Under the pieces are notes generated by a model. That model ran no database searches, had not been told where the DNA came from, and worked only from the letters and a program-made list of their open reading frames with translations. This document shows, piece after piece, positions 4,862-23,504 of a DNA stretch of 34,206 nt. The translations under genes were made by a program, and so were the position numbers. The stretch lies in contig JAKLKD010000063.1 of assembly GCA_023150845.1 (NCBI GenBank), positions 1-34,206 on the forward strand, in the 5' to 3' direction. Position 1 is the stretch's first letter. Each line of letters starts with the position of its first letter. This stretch comes from Myxococcota bacterium. GTDB lineage: Bacteria; Myxococcota_A; UBA796; CAJQPC01.

Positions 4862-7800
4862 ATGAGCTCCTCCGCCTTCCCGATCGCGATCATCGGCGCC
4901 GCCTGCCGTCTGCCCGGCGGCGTCCGCCAGCCCCTCGACCTCGTCGCCTTCCTCCGCGCAGGCGGCGACGGCATCATCGATGTGCCCGCCGACCGCTGGG
5001 ACGTGTCGCTGCACTACGACGCCGAGGACCGCCGTGGCCGGGCCTACGTCAAGCGCGGCGGGTTCTTACACGACGACCCCAAGCTGTTTGACCCGGCGCC
5101 CTTTGGGCTCTCTCCCCGGGACGCCGACGCCATGGACCCCCAGCAGCGCCTCGTGCTAGAGACGAGCTGGGAGGCCATCGAGGACGCCGATCTGCCCGTG
5201 GAGGCGCTGCGGGCCACGGCGACGGGGGTGTACATCGGCGGGTTCATGGGCGACGTGAACGCGCTGGTCGCGCACCCTGGCGGCCGCCACAAGGTGAGCC
5301 AGCACACCGCGACAGGCTCGACGATGACGCTCTTGTCCAACCGCGTCTCGTATGTGTTTGACCTGCGCGGCCCGAGCTTGACCGTCGATACGGCCTGCTC
5401 CTCGTCGATGGTGGCCGCTCACCTCGCCTGCCAGGCGATCCGTGAGGGCGCCTGCGACCGGGCGCTCATCGGCGGCGTGACGATGATGCTCTCGCCGCAC
5501 TCCCCGATGATGATGTCCAAGGGCCGCTTCTTGGCGAAGGACGGGCACTCCAAGAGCTTCGAGGCCGACGCGGACGGCTATGGCCGGGCCGAGGGCGTAG
5601 TGATGCTGCTCGTAGAGCCCCTGCACGTCGCCTTGGCCGCGGGTCGGCGGGTGCTCGCGGTGATCCGCGGCACGGGCATCAACCAGGACGGCCGCACCGA
5701 CGGCATCTCGTTGCCCAGCGGCGAGGCCCAGGCGCGGCTCTCCCGCGAGGTCTGCGCCCGGGCCGGGGTGAACCCCGTCGAGGTGGGGCTCATCGAGGCC
5801 CACGGCACGGGCACCCGGGTGGGCGACCCCATCGAGACCCGCGCCTTGGGTGAGGTCTACGGCGTCGGGCGCCCGGCAGACCGGCCGCTGTACATCGGCT
5901 CGGTGAAGTCCAACCTCGGCCACACCGAGGCCGCCGCCGGGCTCGCGGGGATGCTCAAGGCGACCTTGTCCTTAGGCGCCGAGGAGATTCTGCCCCAGCG
6001 CCCGCTGCGCGCGGCGAACCCCGACATCCCCTTCGAGGCCCTGCGCCTCAAGGTGGTCGAGGCGCCGACGCCCTGGCCCCCGGGCCGACGCCTCGCGGCG
6101 ATCAGCTCCTTCGGGTATGGCGGCACCAACGCCGTCGCGCTCCTGGAGGCCGCGCCCGCCGCCCCGACGACGACGGCGGTGGAGGCCCCCGCCGAGCCGG
6201 TGCGTATCCTCGCCGTCTCCGCGGACAGCGCCGGGGGCCTGCGGGCCCGAGCGGCGCAGCTCTTGGAGGTGCTCGCGGGCCCCGAGGCCGACCTCGACCG
6301 CCTCGCGGCGACCCTCGCCCGCCACCGCTCCTTACGCCCGGAGCGCGGCGTGCTCACCGTGGAGGGCCTCGACGAGGCCCGGGCGGCGCTCACGGCCCTG
6401 CGCGACGGGCTCCCCGACGAGCGCGCGCAGCTCGGCCGCGCCTCGACCCGCCGCCGCCTCGTGTGGGTGTTCACGGGCATGGGGCCCCAGTGGCCGGGCA
6501 TGGGCCTGCAGCTCCTCGACCAAGGCGGGGCCTTCGCCGAGGCCGTGGAGCGCGCGGCGGCGGAGTTCACGCGCCTCTCGGGGCGGTCCATCCTTGAGGA
6601 CTGGCGCCAGAGCGCCAAGACCGGGCGGATGGCCCGGAACGACCTCGCCCAGCCCGTGAACCTGCTCGTGCAGATCGGCCTCATCGCCGCGCTCCGCGCC
6701 CGGGGCCTGGAGCCTGACGCCATCCTCGGCCACAGCGTCGGGGAGGTCGCGGCGGCCCACGCGGCGGGGGCGCTCACCCTGGAGCAGGCCGTCGAGGTCG
6801 CGTGCCACCGCTCGTCGCTGCAGCAGGAGGTCGCCGGTCGGGGCGGGATGCTCGCGGCGTCTCTGGCGCTCGACGAGCTCGACCGCTTCGTGCCCCCCGG
6901 CGCGGACGTGGCCGTGGCGGCGATCAACGCCCCGGGCTCCATCGCCTTGGCGGGCAGCCCCGCGGACCTGGACCGTGTCGAGCGCGCCTTGACCGAGGCC
7001 GGGCGCTTCGCCAAGCGGATGACCGTCGAGGTCGCCTACCACAGCCCCCACATGGATTCGCTCCAGGAGGGCTTCTTCACCCGCCTCGGCCACCTCAAGC
7101 CCGCCGCGCCTACCCTGCCCTTGTACTCGACGCTCACCGGCGCCCGCGTCGAGGGCGCCACCCACGACGCGGCGTACTGGTGGGGCAACGCCCGGCAGCC
7201 CGTGCGCCTGCAAGACGCGGTCAACGCGGCCCTGGGCGACGGCATGGAGCTGTTCTTAGAGGTCGGCCCGCACCCCGTCCTCGGCGCGGCGATCAAGGCG
7301 AACGCCGCCGCCGCCGGTCGCTCGGTGGTGAGCCTCTTCACCCTCAAGCGGCAGACCGACGAGCCCCGCGCCGTCGCCCGCGCCGTCGCCCAGGCCCTCG
7401 CCGCCGGGGCTGAGGTCGATCGGGAGCGCCTCGCCCCGGCCCGGGCCCCGCTGCGCCTGCCGACCTACCCCTTCCAGCGCGCCTACCACTGGATGGAGTC
7501 CCGCACGTCCCAAGAGGAGCGCCTCGGCGTGCCCGGCGCCCACCCCATGCTGCGCCGCCCCGTCAGCCGCCTCACGCCGGGCTGGCGCTGTGAGCTCGCG
7601 GGCCCGCCCTTGGCCTGGACCTCAGACCACGTCGTCGCCGGTCAGACCGTGCTCCCGGCGGCGGCCCAGCTCGAGATGATGCTCGCCGCGGCGGCCACCC
7701 AAGGCGCGGCGACGGTGCGTGAGGTGCGCCTCGCCCGGGCCTTGGTGATCGACCCCGACGCCATCAACACCCTCACCTTAGACATCGGCGAGGGCGGCGA

Positions 7801-10800
7801 GCTCACCTTGGCGGGCGTCACCGACGACGACGCCCCCGTGGAGCTCTCTCGGGCGATCCTCGGCGGCGCCGCCGGGACCGCACCTCGCCAAGACCTGCCG
7901 TCGCTCACCGCGCAGATGCCGCTGAGCGCGCCGACGGGCCTCTACGACCGCCTCACCGCCATGGGGCTTCAGTACGGCCCGGCCTTCCAGACCGTGCGCC
8001 GCGTCGGCCGCGCGGGCCGCAGGCTGCTCGTCGAGCTGGTCCCCCAGGTGGAGCTCGGCCGCTTCTTCTTGCACCCGACGCTGCTCGACGGCGCCTTCCA
8101 CGCCATGCTCTCGCTCCTGCCCGAGGAGGTGAGCCAGCCGGTGATCCCCACGGGCCTTCGGAGCCTGCGCCTCTTGCGGCCCGCCCGCGGCGCCCTCTAC
8201 GCAGTCGTGGACAGCGCGCCGATGGCCGCGGACGGCTCGATCCGCGCGGACCTCGGGCTCTACGACATCACCGGCGAGGCCGTGGCGATCCTGCGGGGGC
8301 TGGAGTGCCGCCCGATCCGCCCGGCCCTGGAGGGCCTCACCGCTGAAGAGAAGGACTGGGCCCACGTCGAGACGACGACGCCCGTGGCCCCGCGGGAGGC
8401 GCCCCCGGCGGTGTGGGCGAGCTGGGTAGACGACGCCGCGCTCCGGGCCCGCCTCGCCCAAGGCGCCCTCGCCCGGGGTGAGCCCCTGACCGAGCTCGAC
8501 CCGGCGAAGCCGCAGCCAAACCCGCCGAGCCACCTCATCCTTCAGGTGGACCCCGGCGAGCAGGTAGACGGCTCCGACGGCCTCTGCGCCCTCTTGGACC
8601 GCGTGCGTGACGCCCAACGCCGCCTCCCCGGCGCTGCGCTGCGCCTCATCACCCGGGGCGCCGTCCCGCTGCCCCCCGAGGCCGGGGCCTCCCTCGGCGC
8701 CGCGGCCCAGCTCGGCCTGGCCCGCGCCCTGCAGAACGAGCACCCCGAGCTCGACCTGCGCCTCCTGGATCTGCCCCAGGACACGCTCCCCGAGGGTGAG
8801 GCGCTCCTCGACGCGCTCCGCCGCGACGACGAGGAGGAGCTCATCTGGCGCCCCGCCGGGCTCAGCGCCCGCCGGATCACGCGCCTCGACCTCGACGCCC
8901 TCGCCAACCCGGGCCACCTGCGGCACACGTCGTTAGTTGAGGCGCCCCCGGCGGAGCTCGTCGTCGGCAACCCGGGTGACCTCTCGACCCTGGCGTTCCG
9001 CCCCATCCCCGCGCCCATCGTGGGCCCCGGCGAGCTCCTCGTGCGCATGGAGCAGGTGGCGCTGAACCTCAAGGACGTCGCGAAGGCGCTGGGCCGCCTG
9101 CAGACCGAGCACAGCGACGGCACCTACACCGGGGCGGCGCTGGGCCTGGAGGGGGTCGGCGTGATCCTGGCGACGGGCGACGGCGTAGACCCCGCCCGGG
9201 TCGGCGAGCGGGTGCGCCTGATGACCGGCGGCGCCTTCGCGACGGTGGTTCAGGTCCGGGCCCACGAGGTCTTGCCGCTCGGCGACCGCGACCCCGTCGA
9301 GGCGGCCTGCGACTTCGTGCACATGACCGCCTGGCACAGCCTGCTGCGGGTCGCCCAGCTCCAGCCGGGCGAGCGGGCGCTCATCCACCAGGCCGGGGGC
9401 GGCGTCGGCCTCGCGGCGACCCAGCTCGCCCTGAGCCTGGGGGCCGAGGTCGTCGCCTTGGCGGGCACCGAGGCCAAACGTGCGGCGCTGCGGGCCATGG
9501 GGGCGCGCTGGGTGTTCAACAGCCGCGATCCCGCCTGGGCTGAGGCCGTCCGGGAGGCGCTGGGGGAGGCTTGTCTTGACGTGGTGCTCGGATCGAGCGA
9601 CCTGCCGTTCATGCGGGAGGCGCTGCCGCTCCTGCGCCCCCTGGGGCGGTACATCGAGCTGGGCAAGTCCGGGCTCGTCGCCGACAAACGCCTCGCCTTG
9701 GGCGTGTTCAACCGGGCGATCACCCTCTCCGCCGTCGATCTTGACCGCCTCGGCGCCGCGCGGCCTGAGGCCATCGTGCAGCTCAACGCCGCCGTCGCCG
9801 ACGCGCTGCAGCGCCGAGCGCTCGCCCCCTTGCCCGTCGAGGTCTTCTCCGCGGGTGAGGTCGCCGACGCCATGCGCCGCCTGGCGAGCGGCGAGGTCTT
9901 GGGCAAGGTCGTCGTGGACCTCACCCGAGGGGAGCTGCCCGTGCTCAGCGCGCCGACGCCCCCGGCGCCGGTTCGGCCCGACCGCGGCTACCTCATCACC
10001 GGGGGGCTCGGCGGCTTTGGCCTGCGCAGCGCCCGCTGGCTCGTCGATCAGGGCGCGCGGCACGTCGTGCTCGCCAGCCGCCGGGGCGTGGGTGAGGACC
10101 CCGCGGCGGTGGAGGTCCTGCGCGCCCGCGGCGCGGTGATCGTCGAGGTGGCCCTGGACGTGGCGGACCTCAGCGCGGTCAGCGCCCTCGTCCGCCGCTT
10201 CGGCGCGGAGTGGCCGCCCTTGGCCGGGGTGCTCCACGCGGCGATGGTGCTGCACGACGCCCCGGCCCTCACCCTGGACCGCCCGAGCCTGCGCCGGGTG
10301 CTGCGCCCCAAGGTGGACGGCGCCTGGAACCTCCACGTCGCGACTGAGGGCCTGCCCTTGGAGCACTTCATCGTCTACAGCTCGATCTCCGGCTGGCTGG
10401 GCAACCCCAACCAGGGCGCCTACGCGGCGGCGAACGCAGCGATGGAGGCCCTGGTGCACACCCGGCGCGCGGCGGGCCTGCCCGGAAACATCGTGGCCTG
10501 GGGCGCCATCGGCGCGGTCGGCGTCGTCGCCCGGGCCCAAGGCACCGAGCGGCACCTGCAGAGCATCGGCCTCAGCCCCATCGCCCCAGGGCGGGCGCTG
10601 CACCTCATGGGCTACGCCCAGCGCCTCGGCGTCGTGAGCCTCTGCGCGGCGAGCGCGCGCTGGGATCGTTGGCGTGAGGCGGTGCCGGGCGTCGGCTGGC
10701 GGCGCCTGGAGGCGCTGCAGGATCGTCGCCGTGAGGATGACGACGCCGGCGTCGCCGCCGCCTTGGCCCGATCCTTGGCCGAGGCGCCCCCCGCCGAGCG

Positions 10801-11068
10801 TCTGGGGCGCCTGCTCCGCCCGTTCAGCGCCGCCGCCGCCCGGGTGTTCGGCCTCGCCGTGGACCAGCTCGATCCCGCCCTGCCGCTGCGTGATCATGGC
10901 CTGGACTCCCTGATGGCCGCCGAGCTACAAGCCGAGCTGCACGCGGCGTCCGGCGTCGAGCTCTCCCTGTTGGAGCTGCTCAGCGGCCGGTCCTTACAGT
11001 CTCTCGCCGAGCGGGCTCTCCCTGGCCTGCTCCGCCTCAACCCATCCTCCCCCGAGCAGAGCCAATGA
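4862..11068 (+). CDS. Single-module fully reducing type I polyketide synthase (KS-AT-DH-ER-KR-ACP)
   Basis: 2068 residues, all catalytic domains apparently intact. KS about 5-430: Cys179 in DTACSSS, His314 in EAHGTGT, His354 in GHTEAAAG. AT about 535-835: Ser625 in GHSVGE and His727 in VAYHSPHM; the GHSV and xAYH pattern is closer to malonyl- than methylmalonyl-specific ATs. DH about 890-1170: His923 in HxxxGxxxxP and Asp1076 in DGAFH. About 1180-1340 is a structural pseudo-KR/linker. ER about 1350-1690: NADPH-binding HQAGGGVG near 1509. KR about 1705-1890: GGLGGFG, Ser near 1841, Tyr1854, Asn1858, and LHD in the LDD position, suggesting B-type. ACP about 1975-2055: Ser2016 in GLDSL. There is no thioesterase, reductase or built-in methyltransferase domain. 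One such module usually works iteratively to make a saturated acyl chain. A methyltransferase gene overlaps its stop by 4 nt. Product unknown; a lipid-like chain is inferred. Confidence 0.93.
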   Translation: MSSSAFPIAIIGAACRLPGGVRQPLDLVAFLRAGGDGIIDVPADRWDVSLHYDAEDRRGRAYVKRGGFLHDDPKLFDPAPFGLSPRDADAMDPQQRLVLETSWEAIEDADLPVEALRATATGVYIGGFMGDVNALVAHPGGRHKVSQHTATGSTMTLLSNRVSYVFDLRGPSLTVDTACSSSMVAAHLACQAIREGACDRALIGGVTMMLSPHSPMMMSKGRFLAKDGHSKSFEADADGYGRAEGVVMLLVEPLHVALAAGRRVLAVIRGTGINQDGRTDGISLPSGEAQARLSREVCARAGVNPVEVGLIEAHGTGTRVGDPIETRALGEVYGVGRPADRPLYIGSVKSNLGHTEAAAGLAGMLKATLSLGAEEILPQRPLRAANPDIPFEALRLKVVEAPTPWPPGRRLAAISSFGYGGTNAVALLEAAPAAPTTTAVEAPAEPVRILAVSADSAGGLRARAAQLLEVLAGPEADLDRLAATLARHRSLRPERGVLTVEGLDEARAALTALRDGLPDERAQLGRASTRRRLVWVFTGMGPQWPGMGLQLLDQGGAFAEAVERAAAEFTRLSGRSILEDWRQSAKTGRMARNDLAQPVNLLVQIGLIAALRARGLEPDAILGHSVGEVAAAHAAGALTLEQAVEVACHRSSLQQEVAGRGGMLAASLALDELDRFVPPGADVAVAAINAPGSIALAGSPADLDRVERALTEAGRFAKRMTVEVAYHSPHMDSLQEGFFTRLGHLKPAAPTLPLYSTLTGARVEGATHDAAYWWGNARQPVRLQDAVNAALGDGMELFLEVGPHPVLGAAIKANAAAAGRSVVSLFTLKRQTDEPRAVARAVAQALAAGAEVDRERLAPARAPLRLPTYPFQRAYHWMESRTSQEERLGVPGAHPMLRRPVSRLTPGWRCELAGPPLAWTSDHVVAGQTVLPAAAQLEMMLAAAATQGAATVREVRLARALVIDPDAINTLTLDIGEGGELTLAGVTDDDAPVELSRAILGGAAGTAPRQDLPSLTAQMPLSAPTGLYDRLTAMGLQYGPAFQTVRRVGRAGRRLLVELVPQVELGRFFLHPTLLDGAFHAMLSLLPEEVSQPVIPTGLRSLRLLRPARGALYAVVDSAPMAADGSIRADLGLYDITGEAVAILRGLECRPIRPALEGLTAEEKDWAHVETTTPVAPREAPPAVWASWVDDAALRARLAQGALARGEPLTELDPAKPQPNPPSHLILQVDPGEQVDGSDGLCALLDRVRDAQRRLPGAALRLITRGAVPLPPEAGASLGAAAQLGLARALQNEHPELDLRLLDLPQDTLPEGEALLDALRRDDEEELIWRPAGLSARRITRLDLDALANPGHLRHTSLVEAPPAELVVGNPGDLSTLAFRPIPAPIVGPGELLVRMEQVALNLKDVAKALGRLQTEHSDGTYTGAALGLEGVGVILATGDGVDPARVGERVRLMTGGAFATVVQVRAHEVLPLGDRDPVEAACDFVHMTAWHSLLRVAQLQPGERALIHQAGGGVGLAATQLALSLGAEVVALAGTEAKRAALRAMGARWVFNSRDPAWAEAVREALGEACLDVVLGSSDLPFMREALPLLRPLGRYIELGKSGLVADKRLALGVFNRAITLSAVDLDRLGAARPEAIVQLNAAVADALQRRALAPLPVEVFSAGEVADAMRRLASGEVLGKVVVDLTRGELPVLSAPTPPAPVRPDRGYLITGGLGGFGLRSARWLVDQGARHVVLASRRGVGEDPAAVEVLRARGAVIVEVALDVADLSAVSALVRRFGAEWPPLAGVLHAAMVLHDAPALTLDRPSLRRVLRPKVDGAWNLHVATEGLPLEHFIVYSSISGWLGNPNQGAYAAANAAMEALVHTRRAAGLPGNIVAWGAIGAVGVVARAQGTERHLQSIGLSPIAPGRALHLMGYAQRLGVVSLCAASARWDRWREAVPGVGWRRLEALQDRRREDDDAGVAAALARSLAEAPPAERLGRLLRPFSAAAARVFGLAVDQLDPALPLRDHGLDSLMAAELQAELHAASGVELSLLELLSGRSLQSLAERALPGLLRLNPSSPEQSQ

Positions 11069-11724
11069 CGACGGCGACCCACGCTGGACAGGCGGTCTAC
11101 TCCGCCTCCTTCCTCAACATCTACGACCTCTGGGTCCATGGCGTCTCCAACCGGGTGCTCTGGCGCTGCCCCACCGAGCGCCTCGTCGCCCACTACGACC
11201 AGCACGTCAGCGGGAGCCACCTCGACGTCGGCGTCGGCACCGGGCTCCTGCTCGATCGCTGCACCTTCCCGAGCACCAACCCCCGGATCGTGCTCTGCGA
11301 CCTGAACGAGAACAGCCTCGCCCACTGCGCCGAGCGCATCGCGCGCTACAACCCCAGCACCGTGCGCGCCGACGTGCTCCAGCCCTTGCCCGCGGCGCTG
11401 CCTCCGGGCTCGTTTGACTCCGTGGGCCTCAACTACCTGCTCCACTGCCTGCCTGGCGACATCCCCGGCGGCAAGTGGGCGGCGTTTGACAGCCTCAAGG
11501 CGGCGTTGAGCCCCGAGGGTGTGCTGTTCGGCTCGACGATCTTAGGCGCGGGCATCTCCCCGAACCTCGCCGCCCAGGGGGTGCTCAAGCTCTACAACAG
11601 CCGGGGCATCTTCGGGAACGATCACGATGACCTCACCACGCTGCGGGCGGAGCTGGAGCGCCGCTTCACCCGGGTGAACATCGAGGTCGTGGGCCTCGTG
11701 GCCCTGTTCACCGCCCGCCGCTGA
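11065..11724 (+). CDS. SAM-dependent class I methyltransferase coupled to the PKS
   Basis: 219 residues; its ATG overlaps the PKS stop codon (ATGA, 11065-11068), so translation is coupled. The Rossmann SAM-binding motif I is 'LDVGVGTGLLLDR' at about residues 53-65, with an acidic residue ending strand 2 in 'IVLCDLNENSL' and a motif near 'ADVLQPLP'. A Tyr-Asp segment (IYDLWVHGVSNRVLWRCP) at about 14-31 is typical of small methyltransferases of the UbiE/BioC type. Because the PKS lacks an internal methyltransferase domain, this enzyme may methylate the growing or finished polyketide in trans (C- or O-methylation undetermined). No membrane segment. Convergent with the lipoprotein gene, which ends 15 nt away. 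Confidence 0.85.
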   Translation: MTTATHAGQAVYSASFLNIYDLWVHGVSNRVLWRCPTERLVAHYDQHVSGSHLDVGVGTGLLLDRCTFPSTNPRIVLCDLNENSLAHCAERIARYNPSTVRADVLQPLPAALPPGSFDSVGLNYLLHCLPGDIPGGKWAAFDSLKAALSPEGVLFGSTILGAGISPNLAAQGVLKLYNSRGIFGNDHDDLTTLRAELERRFTRVNIEVVGLVALFTARR

Positions 11725-12625: not shown

Positions 12626-13663
12626 ATGTCTGATCCCAAGCTGTCTGAGCCGAGCCTCCCGATCCTCCAGTTCCTGCTGCACAACTACAAGAACTTCAAC
12701 TCTCGGGCCACCCGGGACGCGACCTTGGCTTACTGGCGGCACATTCAGGACGGCGGGCGCATGTTCTGGGCCGTGGCGGGGGCCATGTCGTCCGCGCAGC
12801 TCGGCATCAGCCTCGCCCCGGCGATCCGCGAGGGCCTCATCCACGGGCTCTCCGTGACCGGCGCCAACCTGGAGGAGTCCCTGTTCCGCCTCGTGGCCCA
12901 CCACAGCTACAAGGACTTCCCGGACTACCGCTACTTCACCAAGCAGGACGACACGCGCATCTTGGAGGACCGGATGCGCCGGGTCACCGACACGAGCATC
13001 CCTGAAGACGAGGCCTTCCGCGTCGTCGAGAAGACCATCGTGCCGATGTGGAAACGTGCGGACGAGTCCAACACCCGCCGCTTCTGGCACGAGTACTTCT
13101 ACGAGCTCATCACGACCTTGCCGCCGGAGACCTACGAGGGCGACCCCACCCAGTGCTGGCTGCTCGCCGCCGCCCGGGCCAAGCTCCCCATCGTCGTGCC
13201 CGGCTACGAGGACTCCACCTTCGGCAACATCTTCGCGTCTCACGTGAAGTTCGGCGAGGTCGGCGCCCAGATCGCGAAGTCGGGCATCGAGTACATGGCC
13301 GCCTTCTACGACGAGTACCAGAAGCTCAGCGAGGGCGCGGGCGTCGGCTTCTTCCAGATCGGCGGCGGCATCGCGGGCGACTTCCCCATCTGTGTGGTGC
13401 CCTCGATCAAGTACGACCTTGAGCAGCCCGTGAAGCCCTGGGCCTACTTCTGCCAGATCAGCGACTCCACCACGTCGTACGGCAGCTACTCCGGCGCGAC
13501 CCCCAACGAGAAGATCACCTGGGACAAGCTCACGGAAGACACGCCGATGTTCGTGATCGAGTCCGACGCCACCATCGTCGTGCCGCTCATGCTCCAGGCG
13601 CTCTTGGAGTGTAAGCGGAACCCCGAGGCCGCCAACGCCCTCATCGCGCGTTACGGCCGCTGA
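12626..13663 (+). CDS. Deoxyhypusine-synthase-family protein, probably a polyamine enzyme
   Basis: 345 residues, about the length of eukaryotic and archaeal deoxyhypusine synthase (DHS). The C-terminal half carries the family signature: IGGGIAGDFP in the NAD-binding glycine region, 'SYGSYSGATPNEKITWDKL' matching the SGARPDE..WGK block of DHS, and 'ESDATIVVPLM' matching DASLVFPLL. The catalytic Lys that forms the enzyme-aminobutyl intermediate (Lys329 in human DHS) is conserved here as Lys301. The KHH following GGG in human DHS is absent (GDF instead). Bacteria lack eIF5A, so hypusine formation is unlikely. From memory, some bacterial members have been reported to make homospermidine or related polyamines by the same aminobutyl-transfer chemistry; that role is inferred here. 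Its stop is 5 nt before fdhD, suggesting co-expression. Confidence 0.85.
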   Translation: MSDPKLSEPSLPILQFLLHNYKNFNSRATRDATLAYWRHIQDGGRMFWAVAGAMSSAQLGISLAPAIREGLIHGLSVTGANLEESLFRLVAHHSYKDFPDYRYFTKQDDTRILEDRMRRVTDTSIPEDEAFRVVEKTIVPMWKRADESNTRRFWHEYFYELITTLPPETYEGDPTQCWLLAAARAKLPIVVPGYEDSTFGNIFASHVKFGEVGAQIAKSGIEYMAAFYDEYQKLSEGAGVGFFQIGGGIAGDFPICVVPSIKYDLEQPVKPWAYFCQISDSTTSYGSYSGATPNEKITWDKLTEDTPMFVIESDATIVVPLMLQALLECKRNPEAANALIARYGR

Positions 13664-14547: not shown

Positions 14548-15849
14548 ATGAACGCCGCTGTCACCCGCTGGCTCGCTCGCGCCCCTGACGCCGTGTTCTC
14601 GGCCTGGGCCATCGTCGCGGCGTTCTCTTGTTACTTCGCGATGTACGCCTACCGGAAGCCCTTCGCCGCGGGCAGCTTCGCCGGGGTCGTGGACCTCCCG
14701 CTGCTCGGTGAGCTGGACTACAAGATCCTGCTCATCTTGAGCCAGGTGATGGGCTACGCGCTCTCAAAGTTTATGGGCATCAAGATCATCTCCGAGATGA
14801 CCGCGCCCCGACGCGCGGCGGCGATCTTGGCCACCATCGGCTCGGCCTGGGCGGCGTTGGGCCTCTTCGCCATCACCCCGGCGCCTTGGGGCGCGGTGTT
14901 CTTGTTCGTGAACGGCGTGCCCTTGGGCATGGTCTGGGGCCTCGTCTTCGGGTTTCTGGAGGGGCGGCGCAGCTCGGAGCTGCTCGGCGCGGGGCTCTCG
15001 GGCTCGTACATCGTCGCCAGCGGCTTCGTGAAGAGCGCCGGGCTCATGACGCTCGGCTGGGGCGTGAGCGAGACGTCCATGCCCTTCGTGACCGGGGCGC
15101 TGTTTTTGCCGCTCACCCTCGTCTCGGTGTGGATGCTCGCTGTGCTGCCGCCGCCCAACGAGGCCGACATCGCGCTGCGCACCGAACGAAAGCCGATGGA
15201 CGCCGAGGCCCGGGCCGACTTCTTGCGTCGCTTCGGGCCTGGGGTGGCGCTCCTCACCGGGCTCTACGTCTTGCTCACGGCCTACCGCGACTTCCGCGAC
15301 AACTTCGCCCGGGAGCTCTGGGGGGCGCTGGGCTACGACGGCTCGCCGGAGATCCTCACCACGAGCGAGCTGCCCATCACCGTCGCCGTGCTCGTGGCCT
15401 TGGGCGCCTTGATGACGGTGAAGGACAACCGCCGGGCGCTGCTCATCGTGCACGGCCTCATGCTGGCGGGGACGGCGCTCATCGGCGTCTCGACCCTCTT
15501 GTGGGAGGCCGGGCTCCTCGGCCCGGCGCCCTGGATGATCCTCGTCGGGCTCGGGCTCTACATCGGCTATGTGCCTTACGGCTGCGTGCTCTTTGACCGG
15601 CTCATCGCCGCCGTGGGGTTCCCGGGCAACGCGGGGTTCATGATCTACCTCGCGGACAGCTTCGGGTACCTGGGCTCCGTGGCCCTGCTGCTGTACAAAA
15701 ACTTCGGCCAGGGCGAGCTGTCCTGGCTGGAGTTTTTTACGCGCTTCTCCTACCTCTGCGCGGTCGTATGCAGCGCGGCCTTCTTGAGCTCGGCGCTCTA
15801 CTTCTGGCGGAGGTTGGGCTCACACGATGAGCCCGCGGCCCCTAGATGA
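14548..15849 (+). CDS. DUF5690-family MFS-like membrane transporter
   Basis: 433 residues with about 10-12 hydrophobic segments spread over the whole length (for example near residues 20-35, 60-72, 88-108, 112-130, 150-170, 178-200, 228-245, 270-290, 297-315, 325-345, 360-380 and 400-420). The opening 'SCYFAMYAYRKPFAAGSF' and 'GYALSKFMGIKIISEM' are characteristic of DUF5690, a major-facilitator-like family related to sugar-phosphate/organophosphate transporters. Substrate unknown. It starts 60 nt after fdhD on the same strand and may share its transcript. The last 8 nt overlap the 3' end of the convergent lipoprotein gene. Inner-membrane location. Confidence 0.8.
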   Translation: MNAAVTRWLARAPDAVFSAWAIVAAFSCYFAMYAYRKPFAAGSFAGVVDLPLLGELDYKILLILSQVMGYALSKFMGIKIISEMTAPRRAAAILATIGSAWAALGLFAITPAPWGAVFLFVNGVPLGMVWGLVFGFLEGRRSSELLGAGLSGSYIVASGFVKSAGLMTLGWGVSETSMPFVTGALFLPLTLVSVWMLAVLPPPNEADIALRTERKPMDAEARADFLRRFGPGVALLTGLYVLLTAYRDFRDNFARELWGALGYDGSPEILTTSELPITVAVLVALGALMTVKDNRRALLIVHGLMLAGTALIGVSTLLWEAGLLGPAPWMILVGLGLYIGYVPYGCVLFDRLIAAVGFPGNAGFMIYLADSFGYLGSVALLLYKNFGQGELSWLEFFTRFSYLCAVVCSAAFLSSALYFWRRLGSHDEPAAPR

Positions 15850-16358: not shown

Positions 16359-16556
16359 ATGAGCTTTGAAGGTGATGACGGCGCGCAGTACCAGGTCGTC
16401 GTGAACCCGGAGGACCAGTACTCCATCTGGCCCGCGGACCGCGCGTTGCCCCTGGGCTGGCGGGCAGAAGGCAAGACGGGCACCAAGCAGGAGTGCCTCG
16501 ACCACATTGCGGCCCTGTGGACCGACACGATCCCGAGGGGCCCGCGCGGTCGGTAA
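16359..16556 (+). CDS. MbtH-like protein
   Basis: 65 residues from the ATG at 16359, which has GGAGG (16349-16353) 5 nt upstream; the in-frame ATG at 16305 lacks such a site and would add a non-conserved leader. The whole protein matches the MbtH signature: N-x-E-x-Q-x-S-x-W-P (NPEDQYSIWP), then P-x-G-W (PLGW), G-K-x-G, E-C-L-x-x-I and W-T-D. MbtH proteins bind and activate adenylation domains of nonribosomal peptide synthetases and are normally encoded inside NRPS clusters. No adenylation domain is visible here. The only megasynthase in the window, the PKS ending at 11068, has none. The protein probably serves an NRPS elsewhere in the genome. It reads in the same direction as the Lgt-family gene 74 nt downstream. 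Confidence 0.9.
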   Translation: MSFEGDDGAQYQVVVNPEDQYSIWPADRALPLGWRAEGKTGTKQECLDHIAALWTDTIPRGPRGR

Positions 16557-16602
16557 GGGCAGGCCAGGCGCCGAGGCGACCGCGGCGGCACCACCGCTCA
16601 CT

Positions 16603-16616
16603 CCGCCGCGCGGCGG
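16603..16616. promoter_or_regulatory. Perfect 14-bp palindrome before the lgt-family gene
   Basis: CCGCCGCGCGGCGG is its own reverse complement. It ends 14 nt before the ATG at 16631 and abuts the DnaA box at 16618-16626. In such GC-rich DNA short GC palindromes occur by chance, so the weight comes from its position. Confidence 0.3.
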
Positions 16617-16617
16617 G

Positions 16618-16626
16618 TTATCCACA
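16618..16626 (+). promoter_or_regulatory. Consensus DnaA box (TTATCCACA)
   Basis: TTATCCACA matches the strict DnaA box TTATNCACA exactly. It sits 4 nt before the ATG at 16631, where a ribosome-binding site would be expected and none is seen. It is a single box without a visible cluster or AT-rich unwinding region, so it is not an origin. Confidence 0.45.
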
Positions 16627-16630
16627 GACG

Positions 16631-17554
16631 ATGTTCCCCGACCTGCTGACGCTCCAGACACCCTTCGGCGTGCAGGCCCTGCACACCTACGGGCTGCTCC
16701 TCATCCTCGGCTTCTTCGCCGCGACGCTCGTGACCGGCGCGCGCATGCGGCAGGTCGGCATGAACAGCGACCGCCTCGTGCCGCTGATGCTCATCGCGAT
16801 CCCCTCGTCGATCTTGGGCGCGCGGCTCTTGCACTTCTTGGGCTCGACGGATCGTGACGCCTTCTTGGCGGCGCCCTGGATCCTCTTTGACCTCACCCAA
16901 GGCGGCATGGCCTTCTTGGGCGGCGCCATCGGCGGCGTGATCTCCGGGAGCCTCTTCGCCCGGCGCGCGGGGCTCAACGTCTGGAAGATGGCGGACGTCG
17001 GCGCCCCGTCGATCATGCTCGGCCTCGCCATCGGCCGCCTGGGCTGCTTCGCCGCGGGCTGCTGTCACGGCATGGCCTGCCCGGCCCCCGTCGAGGGCAT
17101 GATCACCGGGGACCTCTTCCCCGGCGGCCAGCTCGTCACCGTCGAGGGTTTCCCCTGGGTGGCGATGGTCTTCAACAAGGGCGTCGGCGTCGGCAGCATC
17201 ATCGGCCACCCGGTCTACCCCACCCAGCTCTGGGAGTCTCTGGGCGCGCTCACGCTCTTTGGGGTGCTGAGCCTCTTGTGGCGTTACGCCCGGCGTTTTG
17301 ACGGGCAGATCCTCGCCGCGACGATGATCCTCTACCCGCCGATGCGCTACACCATCGAGACCTACCGCGGCGACGAGCTCCGGGGCACGAACCTCCTGGG
17401 CATGTTCTCGACCTCCCAGCTCACGGGGCTCATCCTCTTGGCGATGTCCTTCGCGCTCATCGCCTGGCGCTGGCCCAAAGGACTCGCGCCGGAGACGCCG
17501 CTCACCGAGAGCGACCTCGACCCCGACCTTGACCCCGACCTGCTGAAGCGCTGA
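16631..17554 (+). CDS. lgt: Lgt-family protein (prolipoprotein diacylglyceryl transferase)
   Basis: 307 residues with about seven hydrophobic segments. Lgt transfers diacylglycerol from phosphatidylglycerol to the lipobox Cys of prolipoproteins in the inner membrane. Supporting motifs: 'LHTYGLLLILGFFA' near the N-terminus, 'GGMAFLGGAIGG', the signature region at 135-147 (GRLGCFAAGCCHG) and 'YPTQLWESL', 'MRYTIETYRGDELRG' near the C-terminus. In E. coli the signature reads GRxGNFxNxExxG; here Arg136 and the flanking glycines remain but the Asn and Glu positions carry Cys, a divergent subtype. The start at 16631 is chosen because upstream in-frame sequence is Arg/Pro-rich; it lacks an obvious ribosome-binding site. 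Its 3' end is an acidic Asp-Leu-Asp-Pro repeat overlapping the convergent GT2 gene by 53 nt. Confidence 0.8.
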   Translation: MFPDLLTLQTPFGVQALHTYGLLLILGFFAATLVTGARMRQVGMNSDRLVPLMLIAIPSSILGARLLHFLGSTDRDAFLAAPWILFDLTQGGMAFLGGAIGGVISGSLFARRAGLNVWKMADVGAPSIMLGLAIGRLGCFAAGCCHGMACPAPVEGMITGDLFPGGQLVTVEGFPWVAMVFNKGVGVGSIIGHPVYPTQLWESLGALTLFGVLSLLWRYARRFDGQILAATMILYPPMRYTIETYRGDELRGTNLLGMFSTSQLTGLILLAMSFALIAWRWPKGLAPETPLTESDLDPDLDPDLLKR

Positions 17555-19989: not shown

Positions 19990-20727
19990 ATGGGTATGCT
20001 CCTCGCCTTGTTCGGCGCCGTCGCCTTCGCCGCGCCGACGCCGACGCTGACCGACGCCGGTCGGGCGCGGCCCGACGCCCGGCCCGCCATGCTCGTGGTG
20101 ACGCCTGGGGTGAGCCCCGCGGCCTACTCGGTCTGGGTCGACGCCGTCGAGGGCGCGGGCCTCGACGCCTGGCTGCTCACCTTCCCCGGCGTGACCTGGA
20201 CCGTTGACGACGCCGTCGCTGGGCTCAAGAGCGCGTTCTCCACCCTGTCTGGGGGCCGTGAGGTGCCGGTGATCGCCGCCCACGGATACGCCGGGGTGCT
20301 CGTGCTCCTGAGCGCCGTCGAGCCCGCCGCCTTGGCCCTCGTCGGCACCCCGCTGGGCCCCCAGCCCGTGCCTGTGCTCACCCGTCCGCCCGTCGGCGGC
20401 GCCGCCTTGGGCCTGCCTTGGGCCCCGGAGCTCCTCGGCCCCCTGGCCGTCGAGCCTACCTCCGGGGAGCTGGGCCGGGCCTACGCCGCTTGGGCGGTGA
20501 GCCTCCCCGACTATGCGCCTCCGCGCTGTCCGAGCCTCGTCGTCAGCTCGGGGATCGACCCCGTCGCCCCGCCCGAGGTGGTGCGTCTGCCCTCCCAGAG
20601 CTGGCCCGACCGGCGCTGGGTGCGCGTCGGGATGCTCGGCCTCGACCCAAAAGAGCTGAGCCACAGCGAGCTGCTCTCCGACCCCGACCTCGCCGCCGAG
20701 GTCGCGGCCTTCTTGAGGGCGCCATGA
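19990..20727 (+). CDS. Exported alpha/beta-hydrolase-fold protein lacking the nucleophile Ser
   Basis: 245 residues. MGMLLALFGAVAFAAP is a short signal peptide. The rest follows the alpha/beta-hydrolase layout: 'PAMLVVTPGVSPAAYSVWVDAVEGAG' (strand with oxyanion loop), 'GLDAWLLTFPGV', the nucleophile-elbow strand 'VPVIAAHGYAGVLVLL', 'CPSLVVSSGIDPVAPP' (acid turn with Asp) and 'LSHSELL' (His turn). The usual GHSxGG reads AHGYAG, so Gly99 stands where the catalytic Ser should be. I infer a non-catalytic or re-purposed hydrolase, perhaps a ligand-binding or chaperone partner for the intact hydrolase whose ATG overlaps its stop by 4 nt. First gene of the 19990-23504 operon. Confidence 0.7.
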   Translation: MGMLLALFGAVAFAAPTPTLTDAGRARPDARPAMLVVTPGVSPAAYSVWVDAVEGAGLDAWLLTFPGVTWTVDDAVAGLKSAFSTLSGGREVPVIAAHGYAGVLVLLSAVEPAALALVGTPLGPQPVPVLTRPPVGGAALGLPWAPELLGPLAVEPTSGELGRAYAAWAVSLPDYAPPRCPSLVVSSGIDPVAPPEVVRLPSQSWPDRRWVRVGMLGLDPKELSHSELLSDPDLAAEVAAFLRAP

Positions 20728-21785
20728 GCCCTCGGCGCTGGGCCGCCCTCGCCGCCTTGGCCTACGGGGGCGGGACGATGATGTCCGAGGCCGCCCCGCA
20801 GCCCACCGAGGCGCCCTGCGCGGCCGCCGAGCGCCACCTCGTCAAGACCGAAGACGGCGCCACCATCGCCCTGCACCGCCACCCCGGCGAGGGGCCCCCC
20901 GTGCTCATCGTGCACGGCATCTCCTCCAACCACCGCTGCTGGGACCTCAGCCCCGAGCGCAGCGTCGCCACGGCGCTCGTCGCCGCGGGCTTTGACCCTT
21001 GGCTCCTCGACCTGCGGGGCCACGGCGACGCGCTCACCGACGCCGAGGGCCGACGCCAGTGGGGCGGCTGGACGATGGACGACTACGGGCTCCGGGACGT
21101 GCCTGCCGCCGTGGACTACGTCCTTGAGCGCACCGGGGCGGCGCGGGTGGGCTACGTCGGCCACAGCCTCGGCGGCATGATCGGCGCGGTCTACGCGAGC
21201 TCCGCGCCCGGCGCCCAAGACAAGCTCTACGCCCTGATCGCCGTGGGCAGCCCGCTGGACTTCTCCGACCCCGACCCGCTCGTGAGCGGCGCCTTGGGCC
21301 TCGCCCGGTGGTCCTTGCCCGTCGTGCCCACGGACCAGCTCGCGAAGGTGCAGGCCGCGATGGGCGGCCGCGCGACGCCGATCAACGCCATGGTGGACGC
21401 CGCCTTACTCAACGACGTGTCCCCCGAGCTGCGGCCGATGATGTACCGGGCGATCACGAGCCCCATGACCGGCGGGGAGCTGCGCCAGCTCGGCGCCGCG
21501 GCCCAAGAGGGCGGCTTCGTGGACGCCCAGGGCCTCGTGGACTACCGCGGCCCCCTCGCCAAGGTCACCGTGCCGACCCTCGTGATCGCCGGGCGGGCCG
21601 ACCAGATCGCCCCGGTGGACCGGGTGATGGCGTTCTACACCGCCGTCGGCGCGCCGGAGCGCCGCCTGGTGATCGCCGGGCGGGCGACGGGCTTCGCGGT
21701 AGACTACGGCCACCTCGACCTCACGCTGGGCGACCACGCGGCGACCGAGATCTTCCCCCTGATCGCCGAGTGGTTACGCCGATGA
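20724..21785 (+). CDS. Exported alpha/beta-fold hydrolase, triad intact
   Basis: 353 residues from the ATG at 20724 (ATGA overlap with the preceding stop). The N-terminus (MSPRRWAALAALAYGGGTMMSEA) is a signal peptide or anchor. Fold markers in order: 'PPVLIVHGISSNHRCWDL' oxyanion loop, 'DPWLLDLRGHGDA', nucleophile Ser148 in GHSLGG, Asp293 in 'GRADQIAPVD' and His330 in 'YGHLDL'. The HGISSNHRCWD loop is of the kind seen in lipase/esterase and polyester-synthase relatives, so a lipid-like ester or thioester substrate in the periplasm is plausible. It follows its Ser-less relative and overlaps the next gene by 4 nt, indicating a co-translated set. Substrate not determinable. Confidence 0.82.
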   Translation: MSPRRWAALAALAYGGGTMMSEAAPQPTEAPCAAAERHLVKTEDGATIALHRHPGEGPPVLIVHGISSNHRCWDLSPERSVATALVAAGFDPWLLDLRGHGDALTDAEGRRQWGGWTMDDYGLRDVPAAVDYVLERTGAARVGYVGHSLGGMIGAVYASSAPGAQDKLYALIAVGSPLDFSDPDPLVSGALGLARWSLPVVPTDQLAKVQAAMGGRATPINAMVDAALLNDVSPELRPMMYRAITSPMTGGELRQLGAAAQEGGFVDAQGLVDYRGPLAKVTVPTLVIAGRADQIAPVDRVMAFYTAVGAPERRLVIAGRATGFAVDYGHLDLTLGDHAATEIFPLIAEWLRR

Positions 21786-22237
21786 ACAACCCGCCCCGTC
21801 TGCTCCAGCTCCAGAGCGGCGTCGCCGTGCTCCACGCCGAGGCGACGGCGCTCGTCGGCTGCGGCGACGGCCTGATGTCCGAGTGGCTCTCCCGGGGCCT
21901 GCCCCGCCGCGGCCCCGACGTCGTGTACCTTCCCGAGACGAGCCCTCTTCAGGTCGCCGGGCTCTACGCTCTGCTCGCCTTCGCCCAGCGCGCGGGTCGG
22001 AAGGCGCCGATGCGGGTGGTGAGCGCGCTGGACGACGAGGCGGCCCCGGCGCTCGTCGCGGCCTGGATTCAGACCGAGCGCGACGGCTTCCCCGTAGAGA
22101 TTGAGGGGGAGCTGCCCGGCGCGACCATCGATGTCGGGCCTTTTGCGCTCCGCGCCGCGCCCGCCGCCGAAGGGCTCGGCTTCGATCTGAGCGTCGGCGG
22201 CGAGGTCCACAGCTTCAGGCCCGGCCGTGGCCGCTGA
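21782..22237 (+). CDS. Small protein resembling a metal-site-less metallo-beta-lactamase fold (tentative)
   Basis: 151 residues, ATG at 21782 overlapping the hydrolase stop. The N-terminal half follows RNase Z-type metallo-beta-lactamase (MBL) topology: 'ALVGCGDGLMSEWLSRGLP' sits like the DCGEGTQxxL strand and helix, and 'DVVYLPETSPLQVAGLYALLAFAQRAGRKAPMRVV' like the 'ITHxHxDHxxGLPxLL' segment. The HxHxDH metal ligands are absent (LPETSP in their place). The C-terminal half gives further predicted beta strands and ends in GRGR. If the comparison holds, this is a second pseudo-enzyme in the operon. The comparison rests on pattern only, and the protein is shorter than a full MBL domain. It overlaps the flavoprotein gene by 11 nt. 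Confidence 0.5.
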   Translation: MNNPPRLLQLQSGVAVLHAEATALVGCGDGLMSEWLSRGLPRRGPDVVYLPETSPLQVAGLYALLAFAQRAGRKAPMRVVSALDDEAAPALVAAWIQTERDGFPVEIEGELPGATIDVGPFALRAAPAAEGLGFDLSVGGEVHSFRPGRGR

Positions 22238-23504
22238 TCCTCAACGCCCCGACGTGCTCATCGTCGGCGCGGGGACGGCCGGCGCGGCGGCGGCCTTGTT
22301 CTGCGCCCGGCGTGGGCTCGCCGTGGTGTGCCTCGACCGCCGCCCCCTCGACGAGGCCGGTGCGCGCTGGGTGAACGGTGTGCCTCTGTGGGTCTTCGGC
22401 GCCGTCGGCCTCGCCCCGCCGCTGCCGCCCGAGGAGCGCAGCCGCGGCGTGCCCTTCCGCATGGTCGCGGGCTGGGACGGCCCCCAGGTGCTCCTCGACG
22501 ACCACGACCTCCTGGAGGTCGACATGCGCGCCTTGGTGCGTAGGCTCCAGGCCGAGGCCCGCGCCGCCGGGGCGACCCTGACCGGCGAGGCCAAGGTCGA
22601 GTCTTGGGACGGCGAGACCGCCCAGACCACCGCCGGGGCCTTCACCCCCAAGGTCATCGTCGACGCGAGCGGCCTCGGCGGCACGATCTGGCCCCACGCC
22701 GCGCCCCGGGGCACCCTCTGCGCCGCCGCCGCCGAGGAGCGGATCTTGCTCGACGAGCAGGCCGCCCGGCGCTTCTTTGAGTCCCGCGGGGCCCAGCTCG
22801 GCGACACCTTGTCCTTCACCGGGGTCGCCGGGGGCTACTCCATCGCGAACGTGCGGGCGGCGGACGGCCACGTCTCCTTGCTCACGGGCTCGATCCCCGC
22901 CTTGGGCCACAAGCCCGGCGTCGTGCTCCTGAACGAGCTCGTGGCGGCGGAGCCCTGGATCGGCCCCAAGGTCTACGGCGGGGCCCGGGCGATCCCCCTC
23001 GACCTCCCGGCGGCGGTCGTCGGGGAGGGCAACCGGGCCCGGCTCGGCGACGCGGCGGGCCAAGTGTTCTCCAGCCACGGCTCTGGCATCGCCCAGGGCC
23101 TGCTCGCGGCGCACCTGCTCGCCGAGTGCCTGGCCTCGGGCGGCGGCGTCGCGGCGTACAACCTCCAGTTTCAGCGCGGCGCGGCGGCGGCCTTGGCCTC
23201 CCAGGTCGTCTTCCGGCGCTTCTCGATGTCCCTCACCCCCGAGGACACCCGCGCCTTGTTCTCCTCCGCCGTGGTCCACCCCGCCGTCGCCAAGCTCGTG
23301 CTGACCCAGCGCCCGCCGTGGCGCGCGCCGCTGGGCCTCCTCGCTGGGCTGCCGGGCCTCGTCCGGGCGCCGGGCCTCAGCGCGCGCCTCGCCCCGGCCT
23401 TCGCGCGTATGGCCGCCGTCGAGGCCCTGCACCGCGTCTACCCGCGTGACCCGGCCAAAGTGGCGGCTTGGGAGGCGCGGCGGCGGGCCGTCGTGGGTGA
23501 CTGA
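22227..23504 (+). CDS. FAD-dependent oxidoreductase of the geranylgeranyl-reductase-like group
   Basis: 425 residues from a GTG start inside the end of the preceding gene (11-nt overlap). An FAD-binding Rossmann motif, GAGTAGAAAALFCARRG, is at about residues 15-31 with an acidic residue ending strand 2 (CLDRRP). The 'VIVDASGLGG' strand and 'ARLGDAAGQVFSSHGSGIAQGLLAAHLLAE' (GD motif, residues about 270-300) are characteristic of group A flavoproteins such as geranylgeranyl reductases, halogenases and PHBH-type monooxygenases. The halogenase GWxWxIP motif is absent, which favours a reductase or hydroxylase on a lipid or isoprenoid. No signal peptide; probably membrane-associated on the cytosolic side. 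Last gene of the operon, ending 3 nt from the convergent GT2. Confidence 0.8.
   Translation: MAADPQRPDVLIVGAGTAGAAAALFCARRGLAVVCLDRRPLDEAGARWVNGVPLWVFGAVGLAPPLPPEERSRGVPFRMVAGWDGPQVLLDDHDLLEVDMRALVRRLQAEARAAGATLTGEAKVESWDGETAQTTAGAFTPKVIVDASGLGGTIWPHAAPRGTLCAAAAEERILLDEQAARRFFESRGAQLGDTLSFTGVAGGYSIANVRAADGHVSLLTGSIPALGHKPGVVLLNELVAAEPWIGPKVYGGARAIPLDLPAAVVGEGNRARLGDAAGQVFSSHGSGIAQGLLAAHLLAECLASGGGVAAYNLQFQRGAAAALASQVVFRRFSMSLTPEDTRALFSSAVVHPAVAKLVLTQRPPWRAPLGLLAGLPGLVRAPGLSARLAPAFARMAAVEALHRVYPRDPAKVAAWEARRRAVVGD

Follow-up and report, generated by a model that had tools for sequence, protein, structure and literature searches.

Arrangement of the four genes and their maintenance

The analysed window comprises a stretch of 34,206 nucleotides from a Myxococcota bacterium (genome G000). 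Its ORF list contains four genes on the + strand with successive overlaps of 4, 4 and 11 nt, and the coordinates agree with the tightly coupled arrangement described in the original prediction. The products are termed P1 to P4 in the following. The lgt gene found upstream lies outside the operon here.

19990-20727, + strand: P1, putative pseudo alpha/beta hydrolase, 245 aa, with a hydrophobic leader and Gly99 at the nucleophile elbow (ORF, family alignment, family profile)
20724-21785, + strand: P2, intact acid-lipase-like alpha/beta hydrolase, 353 aa, predicted to be exported (ORF, profile matches to PDB entries, invariant triad, leaders)
21782-22237, + strand: P3, putative truncated pseudo metallo-beta-lactamase of the RNase Z type, 151 aa (ORF, profile to ELAC2/RNase Z, absence of HxHxDH)
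22227-23504, + strand: P4, FAD flavoprotein, distant relative of geranylgeranyl reductases, 425 aa, GTG start (ORF, NCBIfam matches below cut-off)
16493-17554, + strand: lgt, prolipoprotein diacylglyceryl transferase, 2.4 kb upstream (PF01790)

A second genome of the same genus (G001) carries the same four genes with identical overlaps of 4, 4 and 11 nt, and the proteins P1 to P4 share 82, 89, 78 and 85% amino acid identity with their counterparts. Pairwise dN/dS values against G001 are 0.26 for P1, 0.19 for P2, 0.40 for P3 and 0.19 for P4, with flanking genes ranging from 0.08 to 0.34. Since G001 keeps both the genes and the overlaps and the dN/dS values are low, all four genes are real and are maintained under purifying selection, which rules out a chance arrangement or a decaying operon.

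Further ORFs of the window encode a type I polyketide-synthase-like protein of 2068 aa (4862-11068) with ketosynthase and acyltransferase domains in its first 879 aa, followed by a methyltransferase gene (11065-11724) which overlaps it by 4 nt. A deoxyhypusine-synthase-like protein (12626-13663; PF01916, E 4e-34) is encoded next to fdhD in this bacterial genome. Near the cassette a DUF5690 gene occurs in G000, G001 and G002 (window 14548-15849; L047:14070-15377; L048:3889-5313).

Catalytic residues and family relationships

The intact triad originally read in P2 was borne out by the family comparison: Ser148, Asp293 and His330 are invariant, being kept in all 17 members compared. Together with the GxSxG motif, the Ser-Asp-His triad places P2 among the acid-lipase-like alpha/beta hydrolases, and the closest solved structures by sequence are lysosomal acid lipase and gastric lipases (6v7n, 1hlg, 1k8q; E 1e-13 to 4e-12). 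Many P2 orthologues start with a clear lipoprotein signal, e.g., LLLAGC, LIALAAC or LGLAGC, and the protein is predicted to be a lipoprotein in most relatives; the window's own P2 has a leader with no obvious lipobox.

Homologues of P1 were detected in 18 of the 63 genomes of the order, to which the family is restricted. P1 had been described as a dead alpha/beta hydrolase with the motif AHGYAG and Gly99 at the nucleophile elbow, and a homologue with Ser at this position had been named as the finding that would refute this description. The nucleophile position is occupied by Gly in all 18 family members and by Ser in none of them, so that a recent Ser to Gly mutation was rejected. An alignment of 11 members with a mean column identity of 40% has ten invariant columns; Gly99 is among them, as are Asp190 (the acid residue), Glu196, Arg212 and T38-P39-G40. 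Four of the 18 homologues have another residue in place of the catalytic His; P1 therefore lacks the elbow nucleophile throughout and the catalytic His in part of the family, both of which are expected of an alpha/beta-hydrolase enzyme. The oxyanion-side HG of P2 corresponds to TPG in P1, and no alternative nucleophile is conserved. Because Gly stands at the nucleophile position in all homologues, P1 is best read from the alignment as an old, specialised and conserved pseudoenzyme.

The relation of P1 to the alpha/beta-hydrolase fold is weak for the single protein, for which Pfam evidence is weak, and clear for the family. The family profile matches alpha/beta hydrolases (6qe2, E 6e-6), and comparison of the P1 family with the P2 family by hhalign (E 5e-8) aligned the HG.G motif of P1 with GHSMGG of the P2 family. 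An AlphaFold2 model of P1 with two relatives was poor (pLDDT 49), and nothing significant emerged when this low-confidence model was searched with Foldseek (best E 0.1). Among GTDB contigs, P1 as the only query retrieved nothing, and the alignment of P2 retrieved a single record that includes P1 and has the same gene content as the contig of G033.

The assignment of P3 to the RNase Z-type metallo-beta-lactamases is supported by sequence profiles. The family profile has its best PDB matches to the tRNase Z ELAC2 (E 1e-10, with both ELAC2 halves) and to other RNase Z-type structures, and a full-length homologue matches PF12706 (E 1e-9); the AlphaFold2 model of P3 alone, calculated without an alignment, was too poor to bear on the fold (pLDDT 46). 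The profile matches thus relate P3 to the metallo-beta-lactamase superfamily. P3 homologues in other families are mostly 220-230 aa long, the family of the window having a C-terminally shortened form. The absence of the HxHxDH ligands noted in the window extends to all 16 family members, whereas the weaker matches of a phylum-wide P3 search are canonical metallo-beta-lactamases, and the motif is present in 14 of 14 of these examined. Aligned with these 14 proteins, the P3 family shows SSGR-like residues in place of HxHxDH. As judged from these residues, P3 cannot be an ordinary zinc hydrolase or a catalytic RNase Z, and no export signal was found in its sequence.

The geranylgeranyl-reductase-like character attributed to P4 survived only as a distant relationship. 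A FAD Rossmann motif is found at the N-terminus, an export signal is absent from the sequence, and the protein reaches 49.9 bits against TIGR02032 (geranylgeranyl reductase), for which the curated cut-off is 158.8. Its best curated NCBIfam matches, to digeranylgeranylglycerophospholipid and menaquinone reductases, are likewise far below the cut-offs (52 of 580 and 26 of 700 bits).

Gene order and genomic neighbourhood

P1 and P2 are same-strand neighbours in 14 of the 18 genomes bearing P1 (in G033 at a distance of about 2 kb on the same strand), and the exact 4-nt overlap between them recurs in nine genomes of eight genera. G019 and G053 have the two genes at unlinked sites, and P2 occurs without P1 in many genomes, so that P2 does not always depend on P1. 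P2 and P3 are neighbours in ten genomes, and P1, P2 and P3 occur together in seven (G000, G001, G015, G026, G035, G047 and G326); beside P1-P2, P3 is absent in the families f3, f5 and f6.

A conserved four-gene order, the lack of which the original prediction had listed among the findings that would refute it, was not found. All four genes occur together only in G000 and G001, i.e., within one genus. G002 and G003 of the same family (f1) retain the order 2-3-4; no P1 was found in either genome (G003 is 73% complete and its contig ends at P2). Other families keep 1-2 or 1-2-3. Relatives of P4 were detected in 16 of 58 genomes; they lie beside genes 2 and 3 only in the window's family (G000 to G003) and apart from the other three genes in 12 other genomes, and P4 is a late addition to the cassette in this one family. 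It is thus the modules 1-2, 2-3 and 1-2-3 that are conserved, and not a four-gene system. Because these modules recur in other families and the full set is confined to G000 and G001, the four-gene set is a local assembly on an older module of two to three genes. The original prediction knew of no described system with this composition, and none was found in the open-access literature.

In nine genomes of three families (G002, G009, G013, G027, G033, G036, G039, G050 and G056) the P2 gene lies just past spoVR and a small gene, and yeaH, joined in several genomes by prkA, is found further along; in family f5 it is accompanied there by P1. In nine other genomes, all of family f2 (L283, L285-L290, L292, L293), P2 is arranged tail-to-tail with lgt, and in G003 lgt follows P4. 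One of the tail-to-tail pairs of family f2 overlaps at the stops. In E. coli, yeaG and yeaH take part in adaptation to starvation and stress (PMC4664914), and Salmonella strains without yeaH or ycgB (spoVR) are sensitive to antimicrobial peptides, the ycgB result being given there as unpublished data (PMC2375023). That linkage of the P2 gene with prkA-yeaH-spoVR and with lgt is conserved suggests a role of P2 in the homeostasis of envelope lipids or lipoproteins under starvation or stress.

PrkA and SpoVR were both undetected in the window's genome and in six others with the module (G001, G015, G019, G026, G317 and G021). The module can therefore persist without the PrkA-YeaH-SpoVR system, and a dependence of P1 and P2 on PrkA was dropped. 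Many relatives have PrkA and SpoVR, so that the whole stress operon appears to have been lost repeatedly while P1 and P2 were retained.

The small gene following spoVR encodes a protein of 150-180 aa without a Pfam or NCBIfam match (L069:9202-9741, - strand, and equivalents) and was found in 39 of the 63 genomes of the order. It is a candidate for a fourth conserved gene of the PrkA-YeaH-SpoVR operon.

Proposed function and comparison with known systems

We propose, and rate at an even chance, that P2 is an exported acid-lipase-like ester hydrolase which is made together with a dedicated dead relative, P1, as partner or regulator. Both proteins would most likely be exported, P2 being tethered to a membrane as a lipoprotein in most relatives, and translation of P1 would probably be coupled to that of P2 via the 4-nt overlap. 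P1 may then bind P2 or its substrate and in this way stabilise or regulate the enzyme, which would cleave an acyl ester in an envelope lipid or an acylated envelope component. A role of the P1-P2 pair in envelope lipids appears likely. P3 would be a cytoplasmic pseudo-metallo-beta-lactamase which joined the operon in two families and probably has a binding or regulatory function, and P4 is probably cytoplasmic as well. Related bacteria have retained the dead proteins for a long time, so these probably help or regulate the live enzyme at the envelope of the cell.

It is rather unlikely, and still deserves weight, that P1 and P2 contribute to the same pathway independently of each other, with P1 as a hydrolase-derived periplasmic binding protein and the coupling serving to set equal expression without any contact. 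The two genomes with unlinked genes and the frequent occurrence of P2 without P1 fit such a division of labour, but a closer relation is favoured by the fact that the genes are neighbours in 14 of 18 genomes and that the 4-nt overlap recurs. The invariance of Asp190, Glu196, Arg212 and T38-P39-G40 would also suit an active P1 which uses these residues instead of a Ser nucleophile; we consider such an enzyme improbable, given that His is missing in four of 18 homologues, that TPG replaces the oxyanion-side HG of P2 and that the family offers no conserved alternative nucleophile.

That all four proteins form one complex for lipid or isoprenoid modification at the envelope, as the original prediction had suggested, is highly improbable in our view. 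The overlap of all four genes in G000 and G001, the order 2-3-4 in G002 and G003 and the distant relation of P4 to geranylgeranyl reductases speak for it. Against it stand the separate location of P4 in 12 genomes, the absence of P3 beside P1-P2 in three families and the scores of P4 far below the reductase cut-offs; moreover, because P3 and P4 lack export signals and P1 and P2 have them, membership of all four in a single complex seems unlikely from the predicted localisation. We give very little credence to the view that the genes are decaying or recently mutated and the dead copies functionless: the window's family has a shortened P3, whose dN/dS of 0.40 exceeds those of the other three genes, but the same losses are found in all homologues and the values are well below 1. 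For P1, decay is refuted.

A more far-reaching form of the proposed pairing, in which P1 and P2 are an obligate pseudoenzyme-lipase heterodimer serving in this myxobacterial order as the envelope output of PrkA-YeaH-SpoVR and of lgt-linked lipoprotein metabolism, is doubtful; if true, it would provide a biochemical handle on a widespread and unexplained operon. What makes the locus interesting is the conserved pair of pseudoenzyme and lipase, together with its neighbourhood. Two families of pseudoenzymes are documented here as conserved across genera and under selection, one of dead alpha/beta hydrolases encoded next to a live lipase-like enzyme and one of dead RNase Z-type proteins. The linkage of P2 to prkA-yeaH-spoVR and lgt provides a lead, open to testing, on a widespread stress operon of unsettled biochemistry.

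Among known systems, the gastric and lysosomal acid lipases (LIPF, LIPA) share with P2 the Ser-Asp-His triad and the ERSLA...DLRGHG and YVGHSLGG regions. Unlike these, P2 is bacterial, often a predicted lipoprotein and encoded beside a dead partner, and its putative lipase activity is deduced from sequence. The PrkA-YeaH-SpoVR (YeaG-YeaH-YcgB) operon is directly followed by the P2 gene in the nine genomes mentioned above, with P1 in family f5, but as described it does not include P1 or P2, and it is absent from the window's genome. The digeranylgeranylglycerophospholipid and menaquinone reductase flavoproteins are the best curated counterparts of P4, but only at scores far below their cut-offs. 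P3 resembles the N-terminal domain of the long form of tRNase Z (ELAC2), metal ligands being missing in both; in tRNase ZL only the carboxy domain has kept the metal-binding residues (PMC3714273). In contrast to the ELAC2 domain, P3 is encoded as a separate protein within a lipase operon and not fused to an active tRNase Z. For P1 a parallel is found in DPP10 (DPPY), which has a hydrolase fold without the catalytic Ser and acts by partner binding (PMC4350108). DPP10 is an animal multidomain channel partner, and its likeness to P1, a hydrolase fold without Ser in both, is taken here as an analogy.
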